Source: Anaeramoeba flamelloides
Lineage: Eukaryota > Metamonada > Anaeramoebidae
Reading direction: 5' to 3'
Length of the DNA: 64,000 nt
NCBI GenBank assembly: GCA_027625915.1
Contig: JANTQA010000023.1
Coordinates: 5,332,001-5,396,000 of the forward strand
Shown here: positions 7,660 through 60,586 of the stretch, in pieces
Position numbering within the stretch: position 1 is the first letter of the stretch
How the letters are laid out: each line of letters opens with the position of its first letter
The notes under the pieces: model-generated
Seen by the model: the letters and a program-made list of their open reading frames with translations, nothing else
Databases searched by the model: none
Told to the model about the DNA's origin: nothing
Program-made: the position numbers and the translations under genes

Positions 7660-8160
7660 CAAAAGTTTGGACACAGTTTACACAGTTTAAAGAATAACAA
7701 TAATACACTTTAAATTCAATTTGGAAAGAATTTTGATTTTACAACTATTTTCATTTTTTGTCTTTTTCGTTTTGTTTTCAATTCCTTTTTTATAGTTACG
7801 TAATCGGTTTGGTTAGATAATGGAAATTTTTTTTGATGGGTGATAGAAGGTTAGTGTTGATTTTGTTGAAATAGAAAAAATCAGATACAATTGGTTGATG
7901 ATATCTTATCATTTGATCGATCATTAATTGTTGGTGAAATTTCAACAAATTTACCAATACATTTTTTGTTCCACTCGTTTCATTATTTTAACACAGATAT
8001 TTTTATTTTTGAGTTTTATATTTTATATATTTTATTTGGATTAAAATGATTTAGTTATTAAAACTGTAATATTATGTATCTTAAATGTGGTTTTAATATT
8101 TAGTTTGGAAAAATACAATAAATTGAGTTTTATTTGGCGTTTTATTGAATTTGGGTTGAT
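7660..8160 (+). repeat. family A repeat, copy 1 (GATCGATCA core)
   Basis: Shares an ordered series of blocks with 8838-9165, 21597-22145, 48610-49170 and 51940-52440: an 'ACAGTTTAAAGAATAAC' start, TTTTTGTCTTTTT(C/T)GTTTTG, AATAGAAGGTTAG, ATCTTATCATTTGATCGATC, then 'AATACAATAAATTG'. The core around GATCGATCAAATG is the best conserved part. Copy 2, inverted, lies 0.7 kb downstream, so the two could be long inverted ends of one ~1.5-kb element. Confidence 0.7.
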
Positions 8161-8837: not shown

Positions 8838-9165
8838 ATGAAATGTAGGTAAAAAATTTATTCGTAAATTTGTTTAAATTTCACGAACAATTGTTGATCG
8901 ATCAAATGATAAGATATCATCAACCAATTGTATCTGATTTTTTCTATTTCAACAAACTCACACTTACCTTCAATCAGAGTTTGAAAAAAAAAATAGATCT
9001 AGCCAAACAGAGTACCTAACTGGAAAAAAGGGGAATGGAAATAAAAAAAAAAAGCAAAAAATGAAAATAGTTTGTAAAATCATAATAATTTTTAAATTGA
9101 ATGTAAATTCTGGTATTGTTATTCTTTTAACTGTTTAAACTATATCCAATGTCTTGGTATTTATT
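8838..9165 (-). repeat. family A repeat, copy 2 (inverted)
   Basis: Reverse complement of copy 1. CGATCAAATGATAAGATATC and the adjacent CAACCAATTGTATCTGATTT match 7870-7930 inverted, and the end near 9130-9150 matches the 7670-7700 start inverted. Divergence is moderate and there are indels. Confidence 0.7.
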
Positions 9166-11730: not shown

Positions 11731-12891
11731 ATGAGCAAATCTCAAAAGAATTTCAAAAAAAAAAACCAAAGAAAAAACAACAACAAAAAAAAAGTCAAAA
11801 AAGCAAAAAAAAAAGTTGTTGAATTACCAAGTGCCCACACATACATCAGCAAAAAACAAAGAAATGACGATCTCAAAAAAATGATTGCCTGTAACTGTCA
11901 AGTTGGAACACACAACTTAGAAAAGCAAATGGGAGATTACGTTTACAAAAGAAGAAAAGAAGGTGTCTATATCATCAACATTGCACAAGCCTGGGAAAAG
12001 CTCATGTTTGCAGCCAGAGTAATCGCCTCGATCCCAAACCCTGAAGATGTTGTCCTTGTTTCCGCCAGACCATATGGTCAAAGAGCTATCCTTAAATTCT
12101 CCAAATATCTTGGTGTAAAAGCTTTAGCTGGAAGATTTATTCCAGGTACATTCACTAATCAAATCCAAAAGGCATTCCTTGAACCTCTTTTGATTATTGC
12201 TACAGATCCAAGAACTGATGCTCAAGTAAATTATTCCTTCTTTTTTTTTTTTTTTTTTTTTATTTTTGTAATTCTTGCTTTTTTATTTATTTATTTTTTT
12301 TTTTTTATTTTTTTTATTATTTTTCTTTCTGCTTTTTTTTCTGATTTTTAAAATTCAAAACAAATCAAACTAAAAATTTTAATTTTTTCTTTTCATTTTC
12401 CAAAATCTTCAAAAAAAAAAAAAAACAACCACAAACCAAAACAAAATTAGCCAATCAGAGAAGCCAGTTATGCAAATATTCCAGTTATCTGTTTGTGTGA
12501 TACTGACTCCCCATTAAACTTTGTTGATGTTGCCATTCCATGTAACAACAAAGGAAAATTCTCAATTGGGTTTATTTATTGGTTACTTGCCAGAGAAGTC
12601 TTGAGATTAAAAGGAATGTCAAGAGAAAAGGAATGGGATGTCATGCCAGATCTCTTCTTTTACAGAGACCAATCTGAAATTGAAGAACAACTCGAAGAAG
12701 AAGAACGTAAAAAAAGAGAAGAAGAAGAAGCCAGAAGAGAACAAGAAAATGAATCAGAACCAGAATCCGAAAAATCCGATAATGAATCTTCTGTTGAAGA
12801 AGTTGCTTCTTCAGATAATGAAGAAGACGCTTGGGGTGAAGAAAAATGGGACGAAAAAGAAAAAGAAAAAGGAGAAGAATGGAATGATTAA
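11731..12891 (+). CDS. RPSA: 40S ribosomal protein SA (uS2), two exons
   Basis: Exons 11731-12225 and 12451-12891 are joined across a 225-bp T-rich GT-AG intron (donor CAA/GTAAAT, acceptor AAAATTAG/CC), giving 311 aa. Family signatures are clear: [31 protein letters not shown] and [15 protein letters not shown], then across the junction [36 protein letters not shown] and [10 protein letters not shown]. It is a structural component of the small ribosomal subunit. Two features are unusual: about 45 extra N-terminal residues, nearly all Lys/Asn/Gln, precede the conserved start, and the C-terminal ~85 residues are a highly charged Glu/Lys/Ser tail ending WND. The usual metazoan laminin-receptor tail is absent. 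A possible AATAAA lies at 12939. The intron sits inside the conserved DAQ/IREA core, so the splice is forced by homology. Confidence 0.97.
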
Positions 12892-21600: not shown

Positions 21601-22145
21601 ATTAAACTAAACCCCAATTCAAAATTTTTAACACACCAAAATTTGATTTGTGAAAAAAACCTTATTTAATCAATTCCAGAAGATTTATCAAATTAGAACC
21701 ATTTACTAATTGAAATGTTAACACTTGTTTATAAATTACAATACTCTCAAAACAATAAATAAATAATTATCAATACAAATAAATCAAGGGTGTGTTAAAA
21801 ATTTTGGAGAGAGCCAAACAAAAAATGCATTAGTAAATTTGTTTAAATTCTATTAGGAATATTGATCGATCAAATGGTTAGATACTACCAACTAATTTTA
21901 TTTGAGTTCTTCTATTTGGAACAACTCAAATTTAACCTAATATCAATGGTTGCTCAAAAAATTTTGATCCAACGAGACAAATTACGTGATTCAAACAATG
22001 AAATGAAAACAAAAACTAAATGATGAAAAAATGATTTTCATATTTTACAAAAATCAAAATTATCTTCAATTTCAATGAAATTCTATTGTGATTGTCTGGA
22101 ATGTTTTAGCTGTGTTGAAATTTTTGGAATTTTAGTTTAGTTTGG
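21597..22145 (-). repeat. family A repeat, copy 3
   Basis: It matches copy 4 (48610-49170, opposite orientation) over its whole length, including AGAGAGCCAAACAAAAAATG, TTGATCGATCAAATGG and TCAAAATTTTTAACACACCA. It contains the same central GATCGATCAAATG core as copies 1, 2 and 5. The inner frame ending at 22106 overlaps its end. Confidence 0.75.
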
Positions 22146-24675: not shown

Positions 24676-27600
24676 TCATTTATTTTTATATTGGGTTCTT
24701 AATTTGTGATATTTATCAACCATCACATTATTTTTTTGGATTAATTGGTTAATTCTGATATTTTTTTCTTTTATTTTTGATTGGTTTCTTCTGAGCTTTA
24801 TTTGTAAATGATGGATATTATTTTCTTTACTATTTATTTTCTTTTCTTGATTTGAAAGCAATTTTTTCAATTTTCGATATTCCGAGGACAATCTAATATA
24901 TTTAGTTTCGATCTGTTTAAAGCTTTTTGCTGATTTTGGATCCGTTTTAGATTTTTCAAGATCGGTAGTTAAAGATTTAATCTTATTTAGGGCCAGCGTA
25001 TGCCTTTTATGGTAATTTGCCTTCACCGCATGATAATTTTTTACGATTTGATTATTTTTTTTGATTAAATTATTTAAATGCTCATTTTTTTCTTTTATTA
25101 ATTTTGAATTAGCTTCCATTAGTTTCTGCAAAGTTAAGATTTTTTGGTTTTTTAATAGAATTTCGCTATTAACATCGTTAACATCATATTGGTCATTTAG
25201 CATTACTAAATTTTTGATCTCTTTTTTCAAGTCTTCAAATTTATTTGTAGATTGCCCCGTTTGCAACGTTAACTGCGTTTTTAAGACATTATACTGATCT
25301 ACCATTTTATTTTTACTTCTTATTAACGAATTGATCTTTTCAATTTTTTCTTTATTCTTTTGATTTAAAATTTTGATTTTTTTATTTTTTTTTTGAAGCA
25401 TTGCTTTAAAATTGTTTGAAATTTTGTTGTTTTCCTTTGCTTGGAATTCATTTTGATTATTTCCAATACTTTTCTCTCTCTCTAACTCTTTTATGTGCGC
25501 CTTTTTATTTTTTTCTTGTTCAGCTTTTAACAATTTTTTATTTTTTTGTAAGTCAAATGTCATTTTTTTTAATAAATTTTCTAGTTTTTTTTTTTCAATT
25601 TCGATGTTTTTCAATTTTTCAATTTCCTTTTTTTTTTCATTCAATTTATCAATCAGAATTTCTTTATTTTTAGTATTATTTTTTTGCTTTTCAGCTTTTA
25701 ACAATCGTTTGCTTTTTTGCAAGTCAAATGTCATTTTTTTTAATAAATTTTCTAATTTTTTTTTTTCAATTTCAATTTTTTGTAATTTTTCACTTTGCAT
25801 TTCGTTATTAGTACGTTTACTTTTTACGTTCTTATTCTTATCGCTGTTCGAATTTTGATTTGTTAAATTACTTATTTGCCTTTTCAATTTTGTTATCATA
25901 ATTATTTTTTGTTTGATTTTAATTTTTAATGATTTATTTTCTTCAATTATTTTTCTATTTTCTTTAGTCAGTGTATGCACTGTTTCTTTATTCTCATTTT
26001 TACGCGTAATCGTTGATTTGGATTTATTATTCTTCAAGTTATTGAGTTCTTTTTTTAATTTTGTGATCAAAACTAATTTTTGTCTTGTCTTAATTTTTAA
26101 TGATTTATTCTCTTCGATTAATTTTTTTTTTTCATTATTTTCTTTTTTCATTAATTGATTATTTTTCAGTTGCTTTTTTAAATTTTGAATTATTTTGACA
26201 TTTAGATCTTCTCTCTTTTTTAATTCTCTTTTTAAATCTTGAACTTCTTTCACATTATTATTATTGCTGTTATTTTGTTTTTTATTATTTTTCACTAATT
26301 CTTTTTTTAAATTATTTATTTTTTTTAAATTATCATTATTGTGGTTCTCATTTTTATTATTTTTAAGCAATTCTTTTTTCAAATTATTTATTTTTTTTAA
26401 ATAATTATTACATTGGCTTTTTAATTCTTCATTTTCTTTTTTAAGATTATTGATAACTAAATTATTATTTTTTAATTTGTTATTCATTTTTTTAAAAATT
26501 TCCTTATTCTTATTATTCTTATTATTATTCTTATTCTTATTGGTGTTTGGTTTTTTATTTATTACATTATTTGTTTTTTCATCTTTTTTATCTTTATTGT
26601 TTTCATCTTTTGATTCTTTATTATCTGTTTTTTTTTCCCTTTCATCTTTTAAATCCTTATTTTGATAAATCTTTAGTTGATTTTTTAAATTTAAATTATT
26701 TTTTTTTAAATTGAGAATTTCCTTTCCATAAGAAATTTTCAATTTTTTTAATTCCATTTTAATTTGATTTTTCGAATCTTGTGTCATTTCTTGGTTAGAA
26801 CTACTTTGCAATTTTGAATTTTTTTGTTCCAATACTTTAACCTTTTCCTTTAAACTATTATATTCTTGAGTTATACCACGGAGTTTTTTTAAAACAATAA
26901 AGGCTTGATTTTTTTCTTCTTTAATTTTTGCAAGTTTTTTTTTCAATTTCTCATTTTCGGAGTGTAATTCTTTATTCTTTTCCTTAAATTGATCTTGGAT
27001 GCTGTCCATTTCTTTTTGATTGCCACTCTTTTGACCCTCTAATTTGTATTGTGTTTTTTCAAGTCTCTCTTGTAGCATTGTATTTTGCTCCAGCAATGAA
27101 GTGTTTCGCAATTCAATATTTTTTGTTGTTCTTCTGAGATCGAGCAGCTCTTGAAATTCTACCTGCCCTAACGAACTTTGCCGATTTTTTAATAATTGGA
27201 TTTTGGTATTAAATTTCTCTTTTTGTAAATTTGCTTCTGTAAATTTAATTTCCAAGTTTTTAATTTTCTTTAAATCTTCTAGTTTGCTCTGTTTCAATTC
27301 GTCTTTAACCCTTTCAAGTTCCTCTCTTAATTGATCATTGGATTGCTTCAATTTTTGTTTTTCATTTTTAAATTTACCGTTCATCTCTGTTAATAATTCT
27401 TTCGTTTTTTTGATAATTTTTTCTTCATAATTTTTTGTTTTTTTTTCTGACAACAATTCTTTACATTGATCATAAGTTTCATTCAATAAGAAAATTAATT
27501 CCTCCCTTTCATTTTCTTCTTCAGATGCTAACCCATTTTCATTTTCATTTTCATTGCCATTTCCATTGCCATTTCCATTGCCATTTCCATTACCATTGCC

Positions 27601-29284
27601 ATTGTCATTGTCATTGTCATTGTTGTTATCTGATTTCTTTTTTAAATTCATAATTAATGCTTTTAATTTCTCAACAAACAGTGAATATTTTTTTAATTCA
27701 ATCGCAGAATCCTTTTCTTTAATTTCATTCTTTAATTCCATAATTTTTAAATTTTGGTTCTTCATTAATTGTGTAATTTGAAAATTATAATCATTCTTAA
27801 TTTTTGATTTGTCTTTTTCAAAATCCTGAATTTTTAAATTCAAATTCTTATTTTTTATTTCTAATTCTTTAACTGTTTTGTCATTAATCAGATTTGTAAT
27901 AGCAGTTTCTTTAGTTTTATTTTCCAATTGTTCCAGTTTCTTTTCCAATTGGCTTGCTAAAAAAAGTTGTGTGTTATATTTGGAATTGATTTTATTGTTT
28001 GTTAATTGTAATTTCTCAAAGTTTTGATAATTAAACTCAAGCCCGTTTTGAGACTTTGTATTAAAACTTAAGATTGGTTTGCCATCCTTTGTTGTGTTCT
28101 CAAACTCCTCTTCACTTTCAGAATTTAATTTTTTTGATGTGCCCGTTTCTGTCTCTGAACTTGATTCTGATCTTGCATATTTTATGTTTCTTTCTTTATA
28201 AACTCGATCTGAAAACGAATTGATTAAGAGGATTAAATGTTGCTGTGACCGTTTAGAGATCCCACCCAATTGTGTTTGATGGAAATCACTATTTGGACAT
28301 TTTAATGAGGAAACTAATAATATAAGAAGAATTGTTTTAATAGTCTCTTCGTTTCCTTTAATAGATATCTCGTTGATGTTATCCAATTGGATCTTTTGGT
28401 TAATTTTTTGTGTTTTTGTTTTGTTATTATTTTTTGTGAAGATTTTGTTTTTGTTTTTGTTTTTTTTGGATAAAAAGGTAAAACTATTTCTTTAAATGGA
28501 AAAAAGTTTTCAAAAAAAAGTGTTTTGAATAATTACTGGTTTTTTGATCAATTTAGGAGAGAGTTCCTCGATGCCCTTATAAATGTTTTTAAAATTAAGT
28601 GTTTTTTTAACAATATCTTTTTGAATATTTTTTGACTCGTCTATTGCTATTGGTGTTGAAATAATAGTATTTAGAATCTCGCCAATACGAATACCGTCCC
28701 ATAATGACTTGATTGTTTTGTACCTTATTTGAGAATATGTGTTTACCTTTGTTAAAAATTGGAGAAAAGTTTGCAAATTAAAAATATTTTAGATTTGAAA
28801 AAAGAATTTGTTAATGGTTAGGTGTGAAAGGAGTTCTGGGGGTTTTAAAGAAAGATAGTGTTCGAACTTTTTCAAAACTTTTTGTTTTTTTGAGAATACT
28901 TTTTTGACTTTTGTTTTTTCAAACGTTTAAAATTTTTTGGATTTGTAGAAAATATAACAACAATTAACTCAATCTTTAAGTGAACAAAAATTGAGTTAGA
29001 GTTTAATTCAAGTTTTTTGTAAAAAAATTGTGTTTTTTTTTTGTCTTTTTATCACAAGCAAAGGTAGAAGAATGTACTTATTGACGATCTTTAAAACACT
29101 AGAAAAAAAAAGTCCAAAAATTAAAACCAAACCAATTGCTCAGATTAGAGGTTTCAGTGAACGACTTTACTTTGTCTTAATTAAATCCCCTTTTTTTTTT
29201 TTTTTTGAATAGAAGGAAAAGAAAAGAAAAGAAAAAAAAGTTAATACTTACCCACTCTAACAAAGCGTCATCTTCTATGCTCAT
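24676..29284 (-). CDS. Hook-domain long coiled-coil protein, three exons
   Basis: Exons 29252-29284, 28537-28746 and 24676-28392 join in phase 0 across introns of 505 and 144 bp, giving about 1319 aa. The first exon supplies only MSIEDDALLEW; the second continues VNTYSQIRYKTIKSLWDGIR, and the third begins IQLDNINEISIKGNEETIK. Together, residues ~1-150 follow the HOOK-domain pattern (LL.W.NT.......I..L.DG...GE.L..I, then a helix set ending QQHLILLINSF). Residues ~150-1319 are nearly continuous heptad-rich coiled coil, interrupted by an Asn/Gly repeat of (NG)n then (NE)n at about 27535-27625. Hook proteins join cargo or organelles to dynein and microtubules; a scaffold role at microtubules or the centrosome is the inference. 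It is longer than animal Hook (about 720 aa) and no C-terminal cargo domain is recognisable. The Hook call rests on a weak pattern. Confidence 0.8.
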
Positions 29285-48609: not shown

Positions 48610-49170
48610 ATTTTAATACTAATGTAAAATCCAAAATTTTCCACACAGCTAAAACCTTCCAAAGAATCACAATAATAGAATTTCATTGAAAATCGAAATA
48701 ATTTTGATTTTTGAAAAATATGATAATCATTTTTTCATCTTTTTTTTTTTCATTTCAATGCTTGAATTACCTAATTTGTTTCTTTGGATCACAAATATTT
48801 TTTTGAACCATTGATATTAGGTTAAATTTTTGTTGTTCAAAATAGAAGAACTCAAATAAAATTAGTTGGTAGTATCTAAATTTCGATCGATAATAATTCC
48901 TAATAGAATTTTTACAAATTTACTAATCATTTTTTTTGTTTGGCTCTCTCCAAAATTTTTAACACAACCATCATTTATTTGTATTGATAATTAATTATTT
49001 ATTGTTTTTTGAGTATTTTAATTTATAAAAATGTGTTAAAATTTCAATCAGTGAATGACTTTAATTTGGTAAATCTTCTTGAATTGATTAAATAAGTTTT
49101 TTTTTTCACAAATCGAATTTTGGAGTGTTAAAAATTTTGAATTAGGGTTTAGTATTCGAATTAGAAATAG
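48610..49170 (+). repeat. family A repeat, copy 4
   Basis: Inverse of 21597-22145 over its whole length: AGCTAAAACCTTCCAAAGAA, CCATTGATATTAGGTTAAAT, TTGGTAGTATCTAAATTTCG, TTGTTTGGCTCTCTCCAAAA, CACAAATCGAATTTTGGAGT. The conserved core here reads TTTCGATCGATAATAATTCC. Divergence from copy 3 looks around 15 percent by eye. Confidence 0.75.
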
Positions 49171-51939: not shown

Positions 51940-52440
51940 AGCTGTTTAAACAGTTGAAAGAATTACAAAATATTACACTTTACATTCAATTTGTAAAGAA
52001 TTTTGATTTATCAAACCATTTCATTTTTTGTCTTTTTTGTTTTGTTTTCATACCTTTTTCCAGTCACATAATCTGGTTTGTTTGATCTGGGATTTTTTTC
52101 TCAATGGTTAATAGAAGGTTAGTTGAGTTTAATTTTTTAAAGAGAAAAATCCACAGGAAATTTTACGATGGTATCTTATCATTTGATCGATCAACAATTG
52201 TTGATGATATTTCAACAAATTAACGAATACATTTTTTGTTTCCGCTGGTTTCATTATTTTGGACATACCAATTTTGATTTTTGAGTTTTATATTTTTTTC
52301 TTTTATTTGGATTAAAGTGATTACTTATTAAAACATTAATATTGGGTTAATTAACAGTGTTTTTATATTAATTTTGTAAAAATACAATAAATTGGGGTTT
52401 TTTTTGCCTATTTTTGATTTTGTATGTGTCCAAATTTTTG
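51940..52440 (+). repeat. family A repeat, copy 5
   Basis: Collinear with copy 1 at 7660-8160: CTGTTTAAACAGTTGAAAGA, TTTTTTGTCTTTTTTGTTTT, AATAGAAGGTTAG, ATCTTATCATTTGATCGATC and AATACAATAAATTGGGGTTT. It ends about 30 bp before the TTAA element at 52474. Confidence 0.75.
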
Positions 52441-52473
52441 GAATGGGGTTTATTATGAAATAAGATTTTTTAA

Positions 52474-53410
52474 GGGACTAGTCTGTATTAATTTTTTTTT
52501 GACCAATAACTAAATCAGGAATCGTTATCTTGAAATATGTTTAAAATTGAAAATAGACAGGTTTTTTCAATGTTAGAACTTTTAGTTCTTGTTTTTTAAA
52601 AATTTTCCAATTCTGCCAAAAAAAGTGACTTTTAAAAATTTTTTTTTGAAAAAAGATCTTTAACTGATGAGAATTTTTTGATTAATTTTGGATTTAATTA
52701 TTTTCTCAAAAATAATATTTATTCTCATTTTTAAAAACGAAAAAATAATTTAAAACTAGTGAATATTATCTCCTTCACTTCTGTTCCTCCAACTTGACTC
52801 TATAAATAACCCAATTTGTTTTATCAATAATTACTTTTTTAAAAAATAGTTCTTATTCTTTTCTTTGATTTTTTTTGACTCTGACAAAAAGTTTTCGGAT
52901 GGTAATTTGGGAACACTTAAAAAAACTTCAAATTCAACAAAAACAAAAGAGTGTAAACTGAAAAAGTAGATTCATAAAAAAAAAAAAAAAGAATGGTACA
53001 ATATAAAAAAAGAAAATCTTTTATTAAGAGTAAAGCATATATTGTATATTTTTTTCGAATCAAACTATGTTTTCATGCAAATCCAAAAAAAACCTTTTAG
53101 GTTTATTTTTTAAACTATTTTTTGTACGTATTCCACAAACATAACAAGGTTTTGCTTTCTTGCTCATATTTTTTTTTATTTTTTGTATTTTTGCGAAAAG
53201 TTGAAAAAAAGCAACTTTCAAAAAAGTGAAAAAATGCAAAAATTTTTTATTTCTATAAAAACAATAACTAAATTTAATGAATGTCATTTAGCAAGATTTT
53301 ATTAATATACTAAAAAGTTTTTCACTTTGATTTCAAATCTAAGTAATTGGCAAAAAAAATTCTAAATCTCTATTAAATTTACCTAAAAAAATTTAAATAA
53401 GACTAGTCCC
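52474..53410. mobile_element. 937-bp TTAA-flanked (piggyBac-like) element
   Basis: The left end GGGACTAGTCTGTATTAATT and the inverted right end GGGACTAGTCTTATTTAAAT are terminal inverted repeats. TTAA at 52470-52473 and 53411-53414 flank it exactly, the target choice of the piggyBac superfamily. A 173-bp element with the same ends lies at 54866. The interior has no full transposase, but on the minus strand a small frame (from Met near 53164) reads MSKKAKPCYVCGIRTKNSLK and ends at 53060, with an AATAAA just beyond. It could be the remnant of an internal gene with a CxxC motif. Confidence 0.8.
53060..53167 (-). CDS. small CxxC-containing ORF inside the TTAA element (doubtful)
   Basis: A 35-codon frame starting MSKKAKPCYVCGIRTK, basic, with one C-x-x-C, ending in HENIV. 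The longer frame from 53287 adds a Phe/Lys-rich leader that looks random. CxxC fingers occur at the ends of some piggyBac transposases and in transposon accessory proteins, but one CxxC pair is not enough to assign a family. The less biased composition than its flanks and an AATAAA downstream (about 53018-53023) are the reasons to list it. Confidence 0.3.
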   Translation of the reverse strand: MSKKAKPCYVCGIRTKNSLKNKPKRFFLDLHENIV

Positions 53411-53652
53411 TTAAATAAAAATTTCTTGATTTTTTTTTTTTGGGAATAAGTAAAATATCCAGTAAAATCAAAACATAATTTTTTTATTTCAAAAATGATT
53501 TAAATTGTAATAAAGTTTATTGTGAATAATCTAAACAATTTAATAATAATTTTTTCAGATGTAAAAAGGTGATTTTTTCTTTTTTTAAAATATCTACACC
53601 ATGAGAAAATAATGTTCATTAAAACTTTTAAGAATACAAACTTTTTTACTTA

Positions 53653-54328: not shown

Positions 54329-55302
54329 TTATAAAATTGTACATTTCTTTTTTGGCTTTGAAGGTTTCTCTGCTCTTCTAATTTCCCTTACCAATTCATG
54401 GAAACAATTTTCAATATTTTTCATATTTTTTGCTGAAGTTTCAAAAAATGGTACCCCACACGATTTGGCAACGTTTTTCCCTTCATTTGTTGATACTTCT
54501 CTTCCACTTTCGAGATCGCATTTATTGGCACACATCACACATGGAAACGATTCGGCATCTTTCACTCTTAGCACAAGTTGATATAATTCTGGCATTTCTT
54601 CAAAACTTGCATTATCCACCATGGAATATACAATTAAAAATCCGTCACCTGATTCCATATACTATAATTTATTTTGTTTTTTGATTTATTAATGAATTGG
54701 GGTGTATCAAAATGGCAATGAAAGGAAAAATATTTTTAAAAGTAAGATATTATGGATTAAACAATATTAATTAACTAACAAATTATGTTGAAAAAAATAG
54801 ATATTTTTTTTAGAAAAGGTGTTTTTATATTAACAATTTATTGCGACTTTTTGATTTTATTTTAAGGGACTAATCTCTATTAATTTTTTTTACCTAAATT
54901 TAATAGAGATTGAGAAAATTTTTTGTCAATTACTTTGATTTAGAAAACTCTGTTTATTTTCAATATTAAACATATTTCTAGATAAGGAATCCTTATTTAG
55001 AAATTGGTCAAAAAAAAAAAATAATACAGACTAGTCCCTTAAGAGAAGTAAAATTTTCATTTTTCCTTCAAGGAAAAATCATAAATTTATGAAAACAATA
55101 TTTTTTAAAGTAATAAGAGTTATAGGATAACGACATGGGTTGTATCATCATTCAGAAAAGGCGATTATTTGAATTCCCTATATCAACATTTTATTGGTAA
55201 TTTACCTTTCTTCTTCAAGTTACAAAAATTACTTGGAGGTGTAAATTCAAATCTACCATATAACAATAATAAATTTCAATTCAAATAATTTTGGCAATAT
55301 CC

Positions 55303-55335
<33 letters not shown>

Positions 55336-58300
55336 ATAATTAATTCTCGTTTTTTATTTCATTTATAGAATCATTTTCATAAAAAGATGCAAAAAAGTTT
55401 CCAAATTTTAATATATAAAATAGATGGTAAACTTGTATTAACTTATTTTTAGGATTCTATTGAAAAAATTTTTTGTTACAATTGTTTTGAATGACTTGAC
55501 TTATCCTTTGAAAATAGATTTATAAGCTATTTCCATAAAAGTGAAACAAATTTATTTTAAAATATATTTTTTAAACTTCATTTGAATATTAATATTTAAA
55601 TATCCCAAAATATTATTCATTATTAGTTGTTTTTTCAGCATGATTCAATTTGTTTATTTGTAAGATATCACTATTATTTAAACCATCAAAGTTTATGATT
55701 TCACTTTTATATGAGATTTTTTGGGTGTTAAAAATGATGAGTATGACAATTAAGGTTTATTTTATTCTTATTGATATCCAAAACTTTTTTCAAAAGAGAT
55801 TTAATCTTGATCGAATTTCAAATAAAATGAAAAACTGACATTGTATTTTATTGTTTAAAAAATCGATAATTTCCTTACCATATTGTCCCATTTTTTATTG
55901 AAATTACCCTTACTCTTGTTTTTATCAAAAAAAAAGGGACTTTTTTCCATTTTTTGGAATTATTTTGATGAATATATTTTGAAATACAACCAATAGGTAT
56001 TGATTTAATTATTAGTAATATTTCAGCTTAAATTTATTTTACAAATTTACGAAGGTGGCATACCTTCAAAGAAAATATTATTTGAAATCTAAAAAAATTA
56101 CCCACTTTTTTGAGGAATACCTTATATGTATAGTTAATAGCAATTAAAACAATCGATCTACAAAGTACTTAACTTTTTTTTTAAAAAAAGCAGCACGGAT
56201 TTTTTTTCAACAGATCATTGTCAAATGTTTGCAGATGATTTAACCTTAATAATAAAAGGTATTGAAAATTATTTAAATCAAAAATTAAATTCAATATATG
56301 AAATTAGATATCAATTTGGATTAAAACCAAATAAAGTCAAAATAGTTATATCAAAAGATTTAAAAAAAATTAAATATTATGGAATTTTTTTAGAGAAATT
56401 TTACATATATTGTTTATAAATTTAAAAACAATATAAAGAAACATATAACTGCCAACAATTATTTAATAACAATGCTCTTAATAATATTTTAAAATGAAGA
56501 TTATTTAAAGCTTTTATAATAAGTCAATTAACATTATGGATTAGTTATTTTTAATTCTGAAATAAAAACTATTAAAGTTTTTAAATTCTTTGACTAATTC
56601 ATGTATTGCTGGAATAAGCGAAATAAATAGAAATACACCAATTCTTATTTACAAAACAGAATTTAAAATAGAAAATATGATAATTTCTGTCAATAAAAAG
56701 AAATTTAAATTCAAAAAGAAATTAGGAAATTTATCTCTGCCTAATTTAGAAAAATTAATAAAATTTAATCAAACGAACCAACAATAAAAAAGAAGGTTGA
56801 AATTTAAAAAATTTAATGGAATTCAATAAAAAAAAAATTCCAAATTAAGGGATTAGCGTCACCATAGATTTCTCTATAATTCAAGTAAGCTGTAATTGGG
56901 CGTAAATGATATTAGTGCACCATGACTCAAATAGTTTCTAAACAAATCTATTATAAATCTTATTGTACAATAAATTATTACATTTTTCACTAAGGATCAC
57001 TATTAGAAATTTTCCATTTTGTAAAAATTTTTTTAAAATTCCTTTTCCAAATCTAAAAATCAAAACCCCAAATAATATTAATCCAGTATTTAATAATTCG
57101 TCTTCAGAACTTCCAAAAGTTAAATATTTTTTCAATTTTTTAATTTCAAAGATTAGCTCAATAATCATCAGTATAAAAACCCCAAATACTGATTATTTTT
57201 ATATCCTTTTTATGAAGCTAGTTGGAATTTCAATGTATTTCTAAGATTTCAGAAATAATTTGTCAAAATAATCTATGAAGTTGATTATTTACTTTTTTTA
57301 AAAAAATTGAATTTTTTCGCAACTAATCTACATTTCTCGACAAATTTAAAAAAGATATTTGGCAACTTTGGAGTCTGAATATTGATAATTCAACCTTTAA
57401 ATTTGTGGCAAAATGCAGATATTTTCCCAAAATCCATGGGTTTTATTACTAATACAAAGAATGATTTTTAATTGATGAGGATCAGCAAATATTACTACTT
57501 GACTAATCGCTTTTTTAGAGACATTTGAGTCCTGGTGCACTAATGTGATTTACACCCCATAGTAACTTACTTTAATTTTTATTCTTTATTACTGGTAGAC
57601 ACTAATCCCGAAAAACACAAAAATTCGTTTTTTAGGAAAATAAACTGTGTAAAAAAAATTCCTCGGAAAAGGTTTACTTAATTTGGAATCATTTTTGTTG
57701 CTTAAATTTCGTTCAAAGTTTAATAAAAAATAAAGACTCTTTATTTACAATTCAAAGATATTTAAATTATTCGTGTAATTCAATAATTCTATAATTGCTC
57801 AGAAAACAAAATTAAGTTTCAATTGCTTCTGATGACTTTGTCTATCTTAGACGCTTTTGAATTAAAAGTCTCGAATTTAGTCACTTCAAAATTCTCTCTT
57901 TAATAGATTAGATGAGTTTCATCCAACCCTGTAGAATAAAACAATTTTATAATTGAGAACTTTTACTAATTGCTTGAATAGATATTATGTGGAAAAAATT
58001 CAAATCAATTTTTTCCTTTATATTTAAAATATGAACAGAAGGGGTAATAGAAAATATCGATCATTTTTTATTGGTGTTTCCTTTCTATAGAAGAAGATTG
58101 ATTAATTTTTCAAAACAAATTATAAGAAATAAATCCCAATGAATTAATTTTAACGACTACGTTTGCAATTGGAATTTATAGTATTATGTGTTCTCATCAG
58201 GGTTTGGTGGTTGGTAAATCTCACAAATTTTTATTCAGAGAGATCTAAGAAGGAAAAAATTGCAAATTTTTACTAAAATTTTCAATCTCGTATCTCGAAA

Positions 58301-60586
58301 TGAAAAAGAAGGTTGGCAAAAATCGACTTTTTGAAAAAAATTCCTTTGAAATCATTTTTTAAAATCCTTATACATTGTTGAGGATTTTCTATGTTTTTTT
58401 TTCATTTCTGAGTTAAGTTGAGAAGGGTTTAAAAAATGACTTAGAACGTCAATAAGGAGAAAATTGAAAATTTTTGATGACTAGGCCTTTGTTATTTTAA
58501 AAAGAAAGAGATTTTTGAATAATATTACTGTGATTTGTTTGGTATTATATTAAATCCACTAAAATTCCCATTTCAAAAAATTAAAAAGATCATTTTTTCT
58601 TCACTTAGAAGCACAATAGTTTTGTTTAAAAACAAAAAACAAACCAAATTTTTACAAATTTAATTCCCAAAAGATCCTTTGAATGAAAAATTCTTCAAAA
58701 GATTTCCATGCAACCTCAACCCAATTTCTCTTGATCCAACAAATTGGGTTTTGATAGAATCGATCCAAACAAAAAAATTTTATCAAAAAAACACAAAAAA
58801 AATGAGAAGTACATTTGGCATGGATCATGTTGTTCAAAAAACAATTCGAGGAGACACTCTCCTCTTAGTCATGGCTGGGAGAGATTTAATCCAAAGTAAA
58901 ACAAAAAGAACCAAAAAAAAAAAATAAGATAAAATCACAACCCACATTTGTAATAATTAATACAGCCGTTTCTCCAATCATGAAAGTTTATAAGATCCTG
59001 AAATTGGTTTTCTATACTGAAAATTTTTTTTGTACAACAAACTGTAAAATGGATTATGAAAGTTTACCATAAACTGTAAAATTTATAATAGAAGATTAAA
59101 AATAAGTTATACTTTTTTGGTTCCTTTGGTTTTAGAAATTGACAAACAAATTCAGAAAATACTTACATTAATGTGGATCTTTGATTTCTAAAATTGTAAT
59201 AATCTCAGGTTGTAACAATTTAAAAACAATGATCAAAAAATACTTTCAAGTTTCTATGATTTCTGTGATTTCAATTCTTGAGAAAATTTAATTTTTGTCT
59301 TGGTTTTTACAAAAAAAAAATAACTCTGATGAAGTAAGAGAAGTTGAAATTTTGATCTTCTGTCTGAAATTGGATTTTATATTTCATAAAACACAATTTT
59401 ATAATAGATAACCAGTTTCTATGTGTGATAAATTTTTGCGGTAGGGTTGAAATGGATTAATTGTTTGTGGAGACAATGTAACAATTCAATGTAACTCAAT
59501 GATCAAAAATCATTGACAATATGATTATTTAGATTTAAAGATATTTATTGAGAAGTGTTTTTAAATTTAGAAAATCTCGGTTATTTTTCAATTTCATTTT
59601 CCCGTTCCTTAATAAGGTGTTCGAGTTTGCGGATCTCAAAATTTCTTGTTCATTTTTCATTTAAAAAATGACATAAAATGATTTTTTTGATCCAAATTGG
59701 AAAATATTTTAAAAATCATGAGTTTACGTTTTAAATGAGATTGGAAAAAATTGTGTTGAGGATATGTGTTAAATTGCAAACCTAGTCCTTAAACAAGACA
59801 GTTTGAAATTATTTTAAAATTAATAATCGTGAAATCGATTTTTATGTGTATAAATTTCTGAAAGGGAATTTAAGTCTAAGTTCGTCTCGAGTGTAATTTA
59901 CACTTCAATAATAATAAAAAAAAAAAAAAAAATATGATGTATTTTGAAACCTTTTGTCAACACGAACACTCAGACCCTTTTTAGAACCAAAAACAATAAC
60001 TGTTAATTGAGATCCAAAATTAACCCATATAAATAATAAACAAAAGTTTCGATCACAAATTATTTCAAAAAAGTTTCATTTATAAAAAAGAAAAAAGGAA
60101 GCGAGTTTTTGCTTTTATATTAAAATTAGTGTTTGAACAATACCTGTTCTCTTTTAATTGAGAAAGCCACTTTTTCTAAATCAGGACTAGATAAAAAGTG
60201 AGGTAGAATGCTTGGAACCTTGTCCACCAACATTTAAAAAGAGATTTCAAAAAATTCAAAAATTATATTAAAAAAAAAAAATCAAACTTGTTCACGCATT
60301 GCAGAATATTCCTCTTGACCAGCAGTATCCAAAACGTCTAAAAGAACTGTTTTGTTATCAACTGTTATTTGTTTTCGATAAGTTTCTTCAATAGTTGGAT
60401 CTATATGATAGGGCAATAAAAAAAGAATAAGGGTTTAGAATTCTCAAAACTAAATGCTGAGAAAAGAAAGATTGTGGTGTAGCAATTACCATAGTCTGTA
60501 ACAAAAAAGTTTTGTAAAAAACGAATTGTCATTGCAGATTTTCCAACACCACCACCACCGATCACAACAATTTTACGTTCTTCCAT
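54329..60586 (-). CDS. Ras small GTPase, three exons with a 5.6-kb second intron
   Basis: Exons 60490-60586, 60288-60400 and 54329-54661 join in phase through an 89-bp intron and a 5626-bp intron (donor CAA/GTTTGA, acceptor ATTATAG/TATATGG) to give 180 aa. Numbering matches human Ras residue for residue to 119: P-loop G10-GGGVGK-S17, switch I Y32-DPTIEETY, D57TAGQ61EEYSAMREQ70, then Y71 at the next exon, N116KCD119, ETSAK near 144-148, and a Lys-rich tail ending CaaX (CTIL), implying prenylation and plasma-membrane attachment. Q61 and G12/G13 are those of an active switch. It relays GEF-driven signals to effectors; partners are not visible here. Residue 38 is Glu where most Ras have Asp. Long-intron splicing is inferred from the exact phase and alignment; the alternative is halves of two genes. 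Confidence 0.87.
54866..55038. mobile_element. 173-bp TTAA-flanked MITE
   Basis: Ends GGGACTAATCTCTATTAATT and, inverted, GGGACTAGTCTGTATTATTT. TTAA at 54862-54865 and 55039-55042. It matches the ends of the 937-bp element at 52474 and shares internal AACATATTTC-AGATAA, so it looks like a short internal-deletion derivative moved by the same (piggyBac-like) enzyme. It lies near the 3' end of Ras intron 2, about 200 bp from the acceptor. Confidence 0.85.
55304..55334 (+). repeat. run of 31 A
   Basis: Uninterrupted A-run, the longest homopolymer in the window. It could be a retroposed poly(A) remnant, but no matching LINE/SINE body ends at it. On the Ras coding strand it is T31 in the intron. 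Confidence 0.9.
55335..56199. other. Intronic sequence, nothing recognised
   Basis: No supported gene. The frame at 55650-55838 (+) is hydrophobic and random in style. The last ~100 bases may belong to the LINE fragment that follows. Confidence 0.4.
56200..56790 (+). pseudogene. LINE (non-LTR retrotransposon) reverse-transcriptase fragment
   Basis: The frame from 56225 reads [20 protein letters not shown], the F-A-D-D catalytic box of RT domain 5, followed by [13 protein letters not shown] (domain 6, 'G...N..K') and IKYYGIFL (domain 7, 'IKYLGI'). Downstream, in shifting frames with stops, [11 protein letters not shown] and a Lys-rich end ([15 protein letters not shown]) fit the region after RT. 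Endonuclease and the upstream RT boxes are absent, so it is a 5'-truncated, degenerate copy. It lies antisense to the Ras gene within its second intron. Confidence 0.75.
56849..57609. mobile_element. family B element (GGGATTAG ends), TTAA on the left
   Basis: The left end GGGATTAGCGTCACCATAGA and the inverted right end GGGATTAGTGTCTACCAGTA match for about 100 bp, including TGTAATTGGGCGTAAATGAT versus TGTAAATCACATTAG and TTAGTGCACCA-GACTCAAAT. TTAA precedes the left end (56845-56848); the right flank (GAAA) does not match, so one site is eroded or the ends were rearranged. The 761-bp interior has only random frames (56938-57168, 56963-57244). The GGGAYTAG start resembles the 52474 and 54866 elements. 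Confidence 0.7.
57675..57725 (+). mobile_element. scrap of the TTAAGGCACAAA-family MITE
   Basis: CTTAATTTGGAATCATTTTT followed by GCTTAAATTTCGTTCAAAGT matches the right arm of the intact copy (50531-50570). The left arm and ends are lost. Confidence 0.55.
57780..57960 (-). repeat. family E diverged repeat, copy 2
   Basis: Inverse of 44750-44960; on the minus strand it reads AAAGAGAGAATTTTGAAGTG, ACTAAATTCGAGACTTTTAA and AGTCATCAGAAGCAATTGAA. No terminal repeats are seen. Confidence 0.55.
57961..58629. other. Intronic sequence, nothing recognised
   Basis: A/T-rich with no supported coding. It may belong to the element whose better-conserved part is the family D repeat that follows. Confidence 0.35.
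58630..59795 (+). repeat. family D diverged repeat, copy 2
   Basis: Collinear with 30040-30725 but longer in the middle. It holds an 82-codon frame (58679-58927) reading [20 protein letters not shown] at the start, then a Gly/Leu-containing segment and a Lys/Thr-rich end. The corresponding stretch at 30090-30340 has similar words (e.g. LIQ-K-KR) but is broken, hinting that the family once carried a protein. No domain is recognised. Confidence 0.5.
60143..60232 (-). other. exon-like open segment within Ras intron 2
   Basis: On the Ras strand, ATG at 60232 opens 30 codons ([20 protein letters not shown], then [10 protein letters not shown]) ending at a GTATTG donor-like site; read through, it stops five codons later. 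Its amino-acid make-up is far less biased than random DNA here. It lies 55 bp inside the intron and does not continue the Ras alignment. It could be a first exon of another gene, an alternative Ras exon causing early termination, or a relic. No family recognised. Confidence 0.3.

Follow-up and report, generated by a model that had tools for sequence, protein, structure and literature searches.

A Ras gene of Anaeramoeba flamelloides with a second intron probably enlarged by mobile DNA

Introns that have been enlarged by transposon insertion are well known. A review of the field (PMC3488318), in the portions available to us, treats long introns rather than enlargement by transposons directly. 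A different way of dividing a coding region has been documented in Giardia where, in the partial accounts at hand, gene halves are transcribed separately and joined by splicing, and the halves of the Hsp90 gene lie 777 kb apart. Here we describe a 64,000-nt stretch of the Anaeramoeba flamelloides genome (contig JANTQA010000023.1, positions 5,332,001 to 5,396,000; hereafter the window), in which the coding sequence of a Ras-family GTPase is interrupted, between codons 70 and 71, by 5.6 kb of DNA rich in repeats. We conclude, with a probability of about 0.93, that this is one functional Ras gene, whose second spliceosomal intron has been enlarged by the insertion of transposons.

The Ras gene, its paralogs and its wider relatives

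The first-pass annotation of this DNA had placed the end of exons 1-2 at residue 70, at a phase-0 GT donor, and the next piece of Ras, beginning at Y71, 5.6 kb away on the same strand behind an AG acceptor. Both placements hold, and the coordinates were correct: exons 1, 2 and 3 join into a 543-nt frame that encodes a 180-residue Ras protein with no internal stop. Exon 2 ends in ...SAMREQ (residue 70), followed by GTTTGATTTTTT; TTATAG precedes Y71 of exon 3; and the GT...AG borders of the intervening DNA (60287-54662) restore the frame, as those of a spliceosomal intron do. Human Ras numbering had been said to run on through N116-K-C-D119, and a count by hand along the joined protein places this motif at exactly residues 116-119.

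The three pieces match the Pfam Ras profile (162 positions) at positions 1-31 (expectation value, E, 5.4e-7), 29-66 (1.6e-10) and 68-161 (1.4e-25), and carry the P-loop, switch I and II, NKCD and SAK motifs of PF00071 on that one profile. In a search of solved structures the joined protein aligned with M-Ras without a gap at the exon 2/3 junction (domain E 7.1e-62). Other exons for either half would have spoken against a single gene; a tblastn search of the window found no further piece of Ras, all remaining matches having E of at least 0.3, and alternative partners within the window for either half were rejected on the same search. Relatives of the joined protein were also sought in the genome_contigs and viral_contigs collections, and none was confirmed there.

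Searches with the joined Ras protein and with exon 2 against the genome from which the window comes, which totals 254 Mb in 76 contigs, turned up five close paralogs, spread over three contigs, in each of which exon 2 and exon 3 lie on the same contig and strand. With the window gene they make a set of six, in all of which exons 1, 2 and 3 are ordered on one strand and form an open frame of 543 nt. Intron 1 is short throughout (83-132 bp in 6/6), and intron 2 of the paralogs measures 1,697 bp (C32:5.92M), 2,882 bp (C13:14.22M), 3,226 bp (C13:8.82M), 3,759 bp (C13:11.41M) and 7,950 bp (C24:13.19M). Since all five paralogs keep the order, strand, phase and residue of the exon 2/3 split, the split is not a chance arrangement. 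Five of the six proteins end in CTIL and the sixth in CIIL, both of CaaX form; a C-terminal CaaX box is a signal for prenylation, and the CTIL end of the window protein would be expected to carry that modification.

Across the 15 pairs within this set, taking the parts before and after intron 2 together, nonsynonymous divergence (dN) was 0-0.047 and synonymous divergence (dS) 0.196-1.843 (Nei-Gojobori method; dS approaches saturation at its upper end). For the window gene and its nearest paralog, C32:5.92M, the two halves gave dN of 0 and 0.021 with dS of 0.355 and 0.488. Because dN is low relative to dS, the six are genes under selection on either side of intron 2; purifying selection acts strongly on each half.

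The age of the intron can be judged from more distant relatives. We took the 30 sequence-bearing best matches to exon 2 (of 150) and set aside the six clade members, leaving 24 further loci (L057-L080). An intron at exactly the 70/71 boundary is present in 19 of these 24, at lengths of 101-441 bp, while the remaining five (L071-L074 and L080) run on without one. Among less similar Ras-like genes the 70/71 boundary is often crossed in one open frame, and many of the lower exon-2 matches lack an intron at this point, each being one open frame of roughly 190-260 residues. The 70/71 intron is thus common to the relatives of the window gene and not to all Ras-like genes; with boundary and phase common to 19/24 of them, it is old. 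The five loci that lack it still have exons parting at 32/33, and since that split is kept, the 70/71 intron was lost, or never gained, in their branch.

In a tree of the six genes and ten sister loci, the two groups part at 100% support, whether the joined sequence or each half is used. The ten sisters have intact frames and an intron 2 of 244-441 bp. As the tree splits the six from these short-intron sisters, the long intron 2 is a trait of a six-gene clade and is not peculiar to the window gene. Branch support within the clade is weak in places, and the half-gene trees disagree on the placement of C13:14.22M (61 vs 78% support).

Four more distant Ras loci look, by the coordinates of exons 2 and 3 alone, as if they had a long intron 2, of approximately 4.0 kb at C9:11.62M, 3.8 kb at C64:7.41M, 5.3 kb at C17:2.84M and 1.8 kb at C70:6.51M; these were left out of all counts. 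The repertoire of small GTPases in this genome is very large, with 1782 candidates for the Ras profile at first look, 150 of which were scored, and many of the small-GTPase matches listed are single intronless open frames.

Table 1. The Ras gene and the parts of its second intron, in window coordinates. Copy numbers of repeats are other places among 40 candidates scored for each element, and are lower bounds.
Feature	Position	Strand	Description
Ras exon 1	60490..60586	-	97 nt; residues 1-32 plus base 1 of codon 33; P-loop GGGGVGKS; matched by Pfam PF00071 and part of the joined frame; same exon in 5 paralogs
Intron 1	60401..60489	-	89 bp; GTAATT...ATATAG; phase 1; 83-132 bp in 5 close paralogs
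Ras exon 2	60288..60400	-	113 nt; ends at Q70; holds switch I and II; 97-100% identity with exon 2 of 5 paralogs
Intron 2	54662..60287	-	5,626 bp; phase 0; donor GTTTGA; acceptor TTATAG
Retained host sequence, 5' end of intron 2	60088..60287	-	T-rich tract after donor; sole other genome match lies beside exon 2 of C32:5.92M, 78%
Element D, inverted-repeat element	58149..59793	.	1,645 bp; 22-nt ends, 91%; 39 other places, 75-83%; 21/39 full length
Element C, inverted-repeat element	56845..57611	.	767 bp; 55-nt arms, 82%; 39 other places, 81-85%
Dispersed repeat with broken reverse transcriptase frame	56206..56829	+	antisense to Ras; 39 other places, 84-87%
Element A, miniature inverted-repeat transposable element (MITE)	54862..55042	.	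181 bp; inverted ends TTAAGGGACTARTC; TTAA on both sides; 39 other places, 92-95%
Retained host sequence, 3' end of intron 2, including acceptor	54662..54861	-	sole other genome match is the same intron end of C32:5.92M, 78%
Ras exon 3	54329..54661	-	333 nt including stop; Y71 to C-terminal CTIL; NKCD and ETSAK motifs; same exon in 5 paralogs

Mobile DNA within the second intron

The proposal that this gene had been stretched by mobile DNA is borne out by the make-up of intron 2: four inner stretches are multi-copy in the genome, the two ends of the intron are near-unique, and the 70/71 position is shared with short-intron relatives (Table 1). Together the four repeats account for 3,217 of the 5,626 bp (57%), the remainder being host intron or unassigned.

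Element A has the inverted ends, the target duplication and the many copies of a MITE, and no coding capacity, 181 bp being too small for a transposase. The corresponding site in C32:5.92M is empty, with a single TTGA in place of the two TTAA of the window, so that the insertion of element A postdates the separation of the two genes. The evidence for element A is its copies and this empty site; its inverted-end pattern, allowing up to 3 mismatches, is no more frequent in the window than chance would give (5 found vs 2.7 expected). At the threshold used, one stretch beside element A is all that the interiors of intron 2 in the window and in C32:5.92M share. An element of 945 bp whose TTAAGGGACTAGTC ends are those of element A lies at 52470-53414, 0.9 kb past the Ras stop codon; its two ends match the two of element A, which looks like an internally deleted relative of it. 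The longer element encloses a 75-residue frame (53060-53287, minus strand) with the motif CYVCGIRTKN, for which no Pfam family was matched.

The repeat at 56206-56829 matches RVT_1 at E 1e-4, with 22.5 bits, which is below the curated cut-off of 29.6, and a comparison of its reverse transcriptase frame with solved structures gave chance matches only. All 39 other copies start at 56206 or 56209, and the repeat is probably the 3' end of a non-LTR (long terminal repeat) retrotransposon. A copy of this retrotransposon end is also present in intron 2 of C24:13.19M. Elements C and D have inverted ends and many copies that share their borders, some copies being shorter, and on these grounds they are classed as non-autonomous inverted-repeat DNA elements. 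Element C recurs in intron 2 of C13:14.22M in the opposite orientation and at a different place, and because orientation and place differ, the two copies are most likely separate insertions. Of ten frames compared with Pfam (eight from intron 2, one from upstream of the gene and one from the element that lies 3' to it), one gave a weak match (E 0.078); two further frames in intron 2 likewise gave one weak match (E 0.016), below the cut-off.

The splice donor and the competing explanations

Several points weigh against our reading of one cis-spliced gene. The joining of the exons is predicted here from DNA, and the adjacency of the two halves is read from an assembled contig. The intron 2 donor of the window gene, GTTTGA, departs at positions +3 and +4 from all five donors of a reference set (GTAAAT, GTAAGA, GTAAAT, GTAAGT and GTAATT), which comprises five window introns modelled by eye, of 89, 135, 192, 208 and 225 bp, three of them from a gene named by eye as RRM-like. 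GTTTG is found at none of the 19 relatives with a 70/71 intron, all of which begin GTA, and the same start is seen at 16/16 of the intron-1 donors of the six clade genes and ten sisters. Intron 2 of the window gene thus lacks the GTA start, a usual though non-defining feature of donors in this genome. That the donor is off consensus, the oddest feature of the gene, had gone unremarked in the first-pass annotation. Within the clade, GTTTG is the intron 2 donor of five of the six members; the sixth, C13:14.22M, has the canonical GTAAGT; the clade thus has a stronger donor at its disposal. Lastly, intron 2 does not stand out for an A-rich 3' end, a feature of some introns: 18% of the background is at least as extreme.

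A T at the third position is unusual here, but that GTTTG has been kept in five copies widely diverged at synonymous sites suggests that the donor works. It is followed by a T tract (22/30) which is matched at 9 of 1105 background GTs; this tract resembles that of four of the five reference introns, and is absent from intron 1 of the Ras gene. The other introns modelled in the first-pass annotation had been put at about 89-505 bp; the five modelled by eye here, with which that range was checked, are 89-225 bp.

The GTTTG donor and the lasting long intron could instead be a regulatory device that has been kept, slow or conditional splicing setting the output of one Ras subfamily, through retention of intron 2 or through stepwise splicing over 2-8 kb. 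We consider this unlikely. A block conserved in all six long introns, sought as a sign of function, was not found at the threshold used, and one pair of introns had no match to each other.

It is very improbable that the window holds two half genes which are separately transcribed and joined by trans-splicing, in the manner of Giardia Hsp90. The long gap and the weak donor would fit such an arrangement, but the halves are ordered, on the same strand and 1.7-8.0 kb apart in 6/6 copies, which is what splicing in cis would lead one to expect, and 19 relatives have them 101-441 bp apart. Nor is the complementarity between the intron ends unusual, as interior pairs were at least as good in 35/60 comparisons of 100 nt and 55/60 of 200 nt. 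Halves at separate loci, as in a trans-spliced split gene, were not found for the Ras clade of this genome; the adjacency and order of the halves in every copy examined speak against trans-splicing.

We give similarly little credence to the idea that the window gene is a recently dead copy, silenced by a transposon insertion or by mutation of its donor. An off-consensus donor, and an intron full of mobile DNA, are what such a copy might show; against this, GTTTG is kept in five of the six members, many pairs of which are separated by about one synonymous change per site with dN of at most 0.047, and the divergence of the window gene from C32:5.92M is low in dN relative to dS for both halves, as given above.

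Misassembly, by which a repeat-rich stretch would have been misplaced between the two halves of a short intron, has only a slight chance of being the explanation. The middle of intron 2 is largely made of multi-copy repeats, which are prone to it, but the unique intron ends on both sides match a paralog with a different middle, five other loci on three contigs have long introns at the same place, and element A is inserted with TTAA borders at a site that is empty in the paralog. Insertion of mobile DNA into an exon was rejected, because the border is shared with five paralogs; no target duplication was seen, by eye, at the exon edges.

The paralogs, the shared intron position and the selection on both halves thus support a single Ras gene and, with the multi-copy middle, the enlargement of its intron by mobile DNA, as the first-pass annotation had proposed; the genome itself settles most of the matter. 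For the single gene we infer its growth and its expression from the sequence as follows. Most simply, intron 2 would have grown before the six-gene clade split, repeated growth since then being the alternative; after the split, further insertions would have brought different mobile elements into different copies. The outer 200 nt or so at each end are what remains of the host intron and most likely carry the splice signals, the middle most likely playing no part in splicing. The 6.3-kb unit is most likely transcribed whole, with cis-splicing that spans 5.6 kb of its pre-mRNA; the product would be an ordinary Ras GTPase, prenylated at its CTIL end.

The remainder of the window and comparison with known systems

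Elsewhere in the window, the C-terminal dimerisation piece of a hAT transposase lies at the very start (3-173; Pfam E 1.8e-7), and a ribosomal protein S2/SA-like gene at 11731-12891 has one intron of 225 bp, with a frame that stays open partway into the intron. A 1271-residue coiled-coil-like frame with N/K/E repeats (24676-28491) has no Pfam match. Short frames at 7796-7987, 8849-9019, 21847-22023, 48767-48919 and 52129-52287 share, by eye, a LLKFHQQLLIDQMIRYHQPIVSDFFYFNK-like motif, in places decayed, and are probably the small frames of a single family of dispersed repeats. Known RNA families and transfer RNAs were sought across the 64 kb, and none was found.

This family of Ras genes offers a natural series within one genome, in which an intron at a fixed codon boundary has lengths of roughly 100 bp up to almost 8 kb. 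So clean a series of lengths, at one intron position in one gene family and one genome, is uncommon, and we found no description of such a same-position series in the portions of the open-access literature searched. The series makes it testable how far splicing can reach in this organism, and whether or not a weak donor is linked with long introns. In published work on Anaeramoeba (PMC11550330), which the genome searched here may resemble in base composition and in its large gene families, the mapping of RNA reads allowed introns of up to 10 kb. It is also a warning for annotation: software that expects short introns could split Ras genes of this kind into two separate predictions.

In its protein the gene looks ordinary: the best solved-structure matches are M-Ras and K-Ras, with the Ras motifs in the same order, and by comparison with the Ras/M-Ras GTPases it is the gene structure alone that is unusual. 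Element A is like TTAA-inserting MITEs in being short, with inverted ends, TTAA on both sides and many similar copies, but no transposase was matched for it. Like the trans-spliced genes of Giardia, as partially described in the accounts available, the Ras gene has its coding region in two separated parts; unlike the halves of Giardia Hsp90, which those accounts place far apart, its halves are adjacent and ordered in all six copies. With transposon-enlarged introns generally, the Ras intron shares an old position, short relatives, and mobile DNA lying between conserved ends; what differs here is that one position is long throughout a clade of six genes, while the neighbouring intron 1 stays at 83-132 bp.

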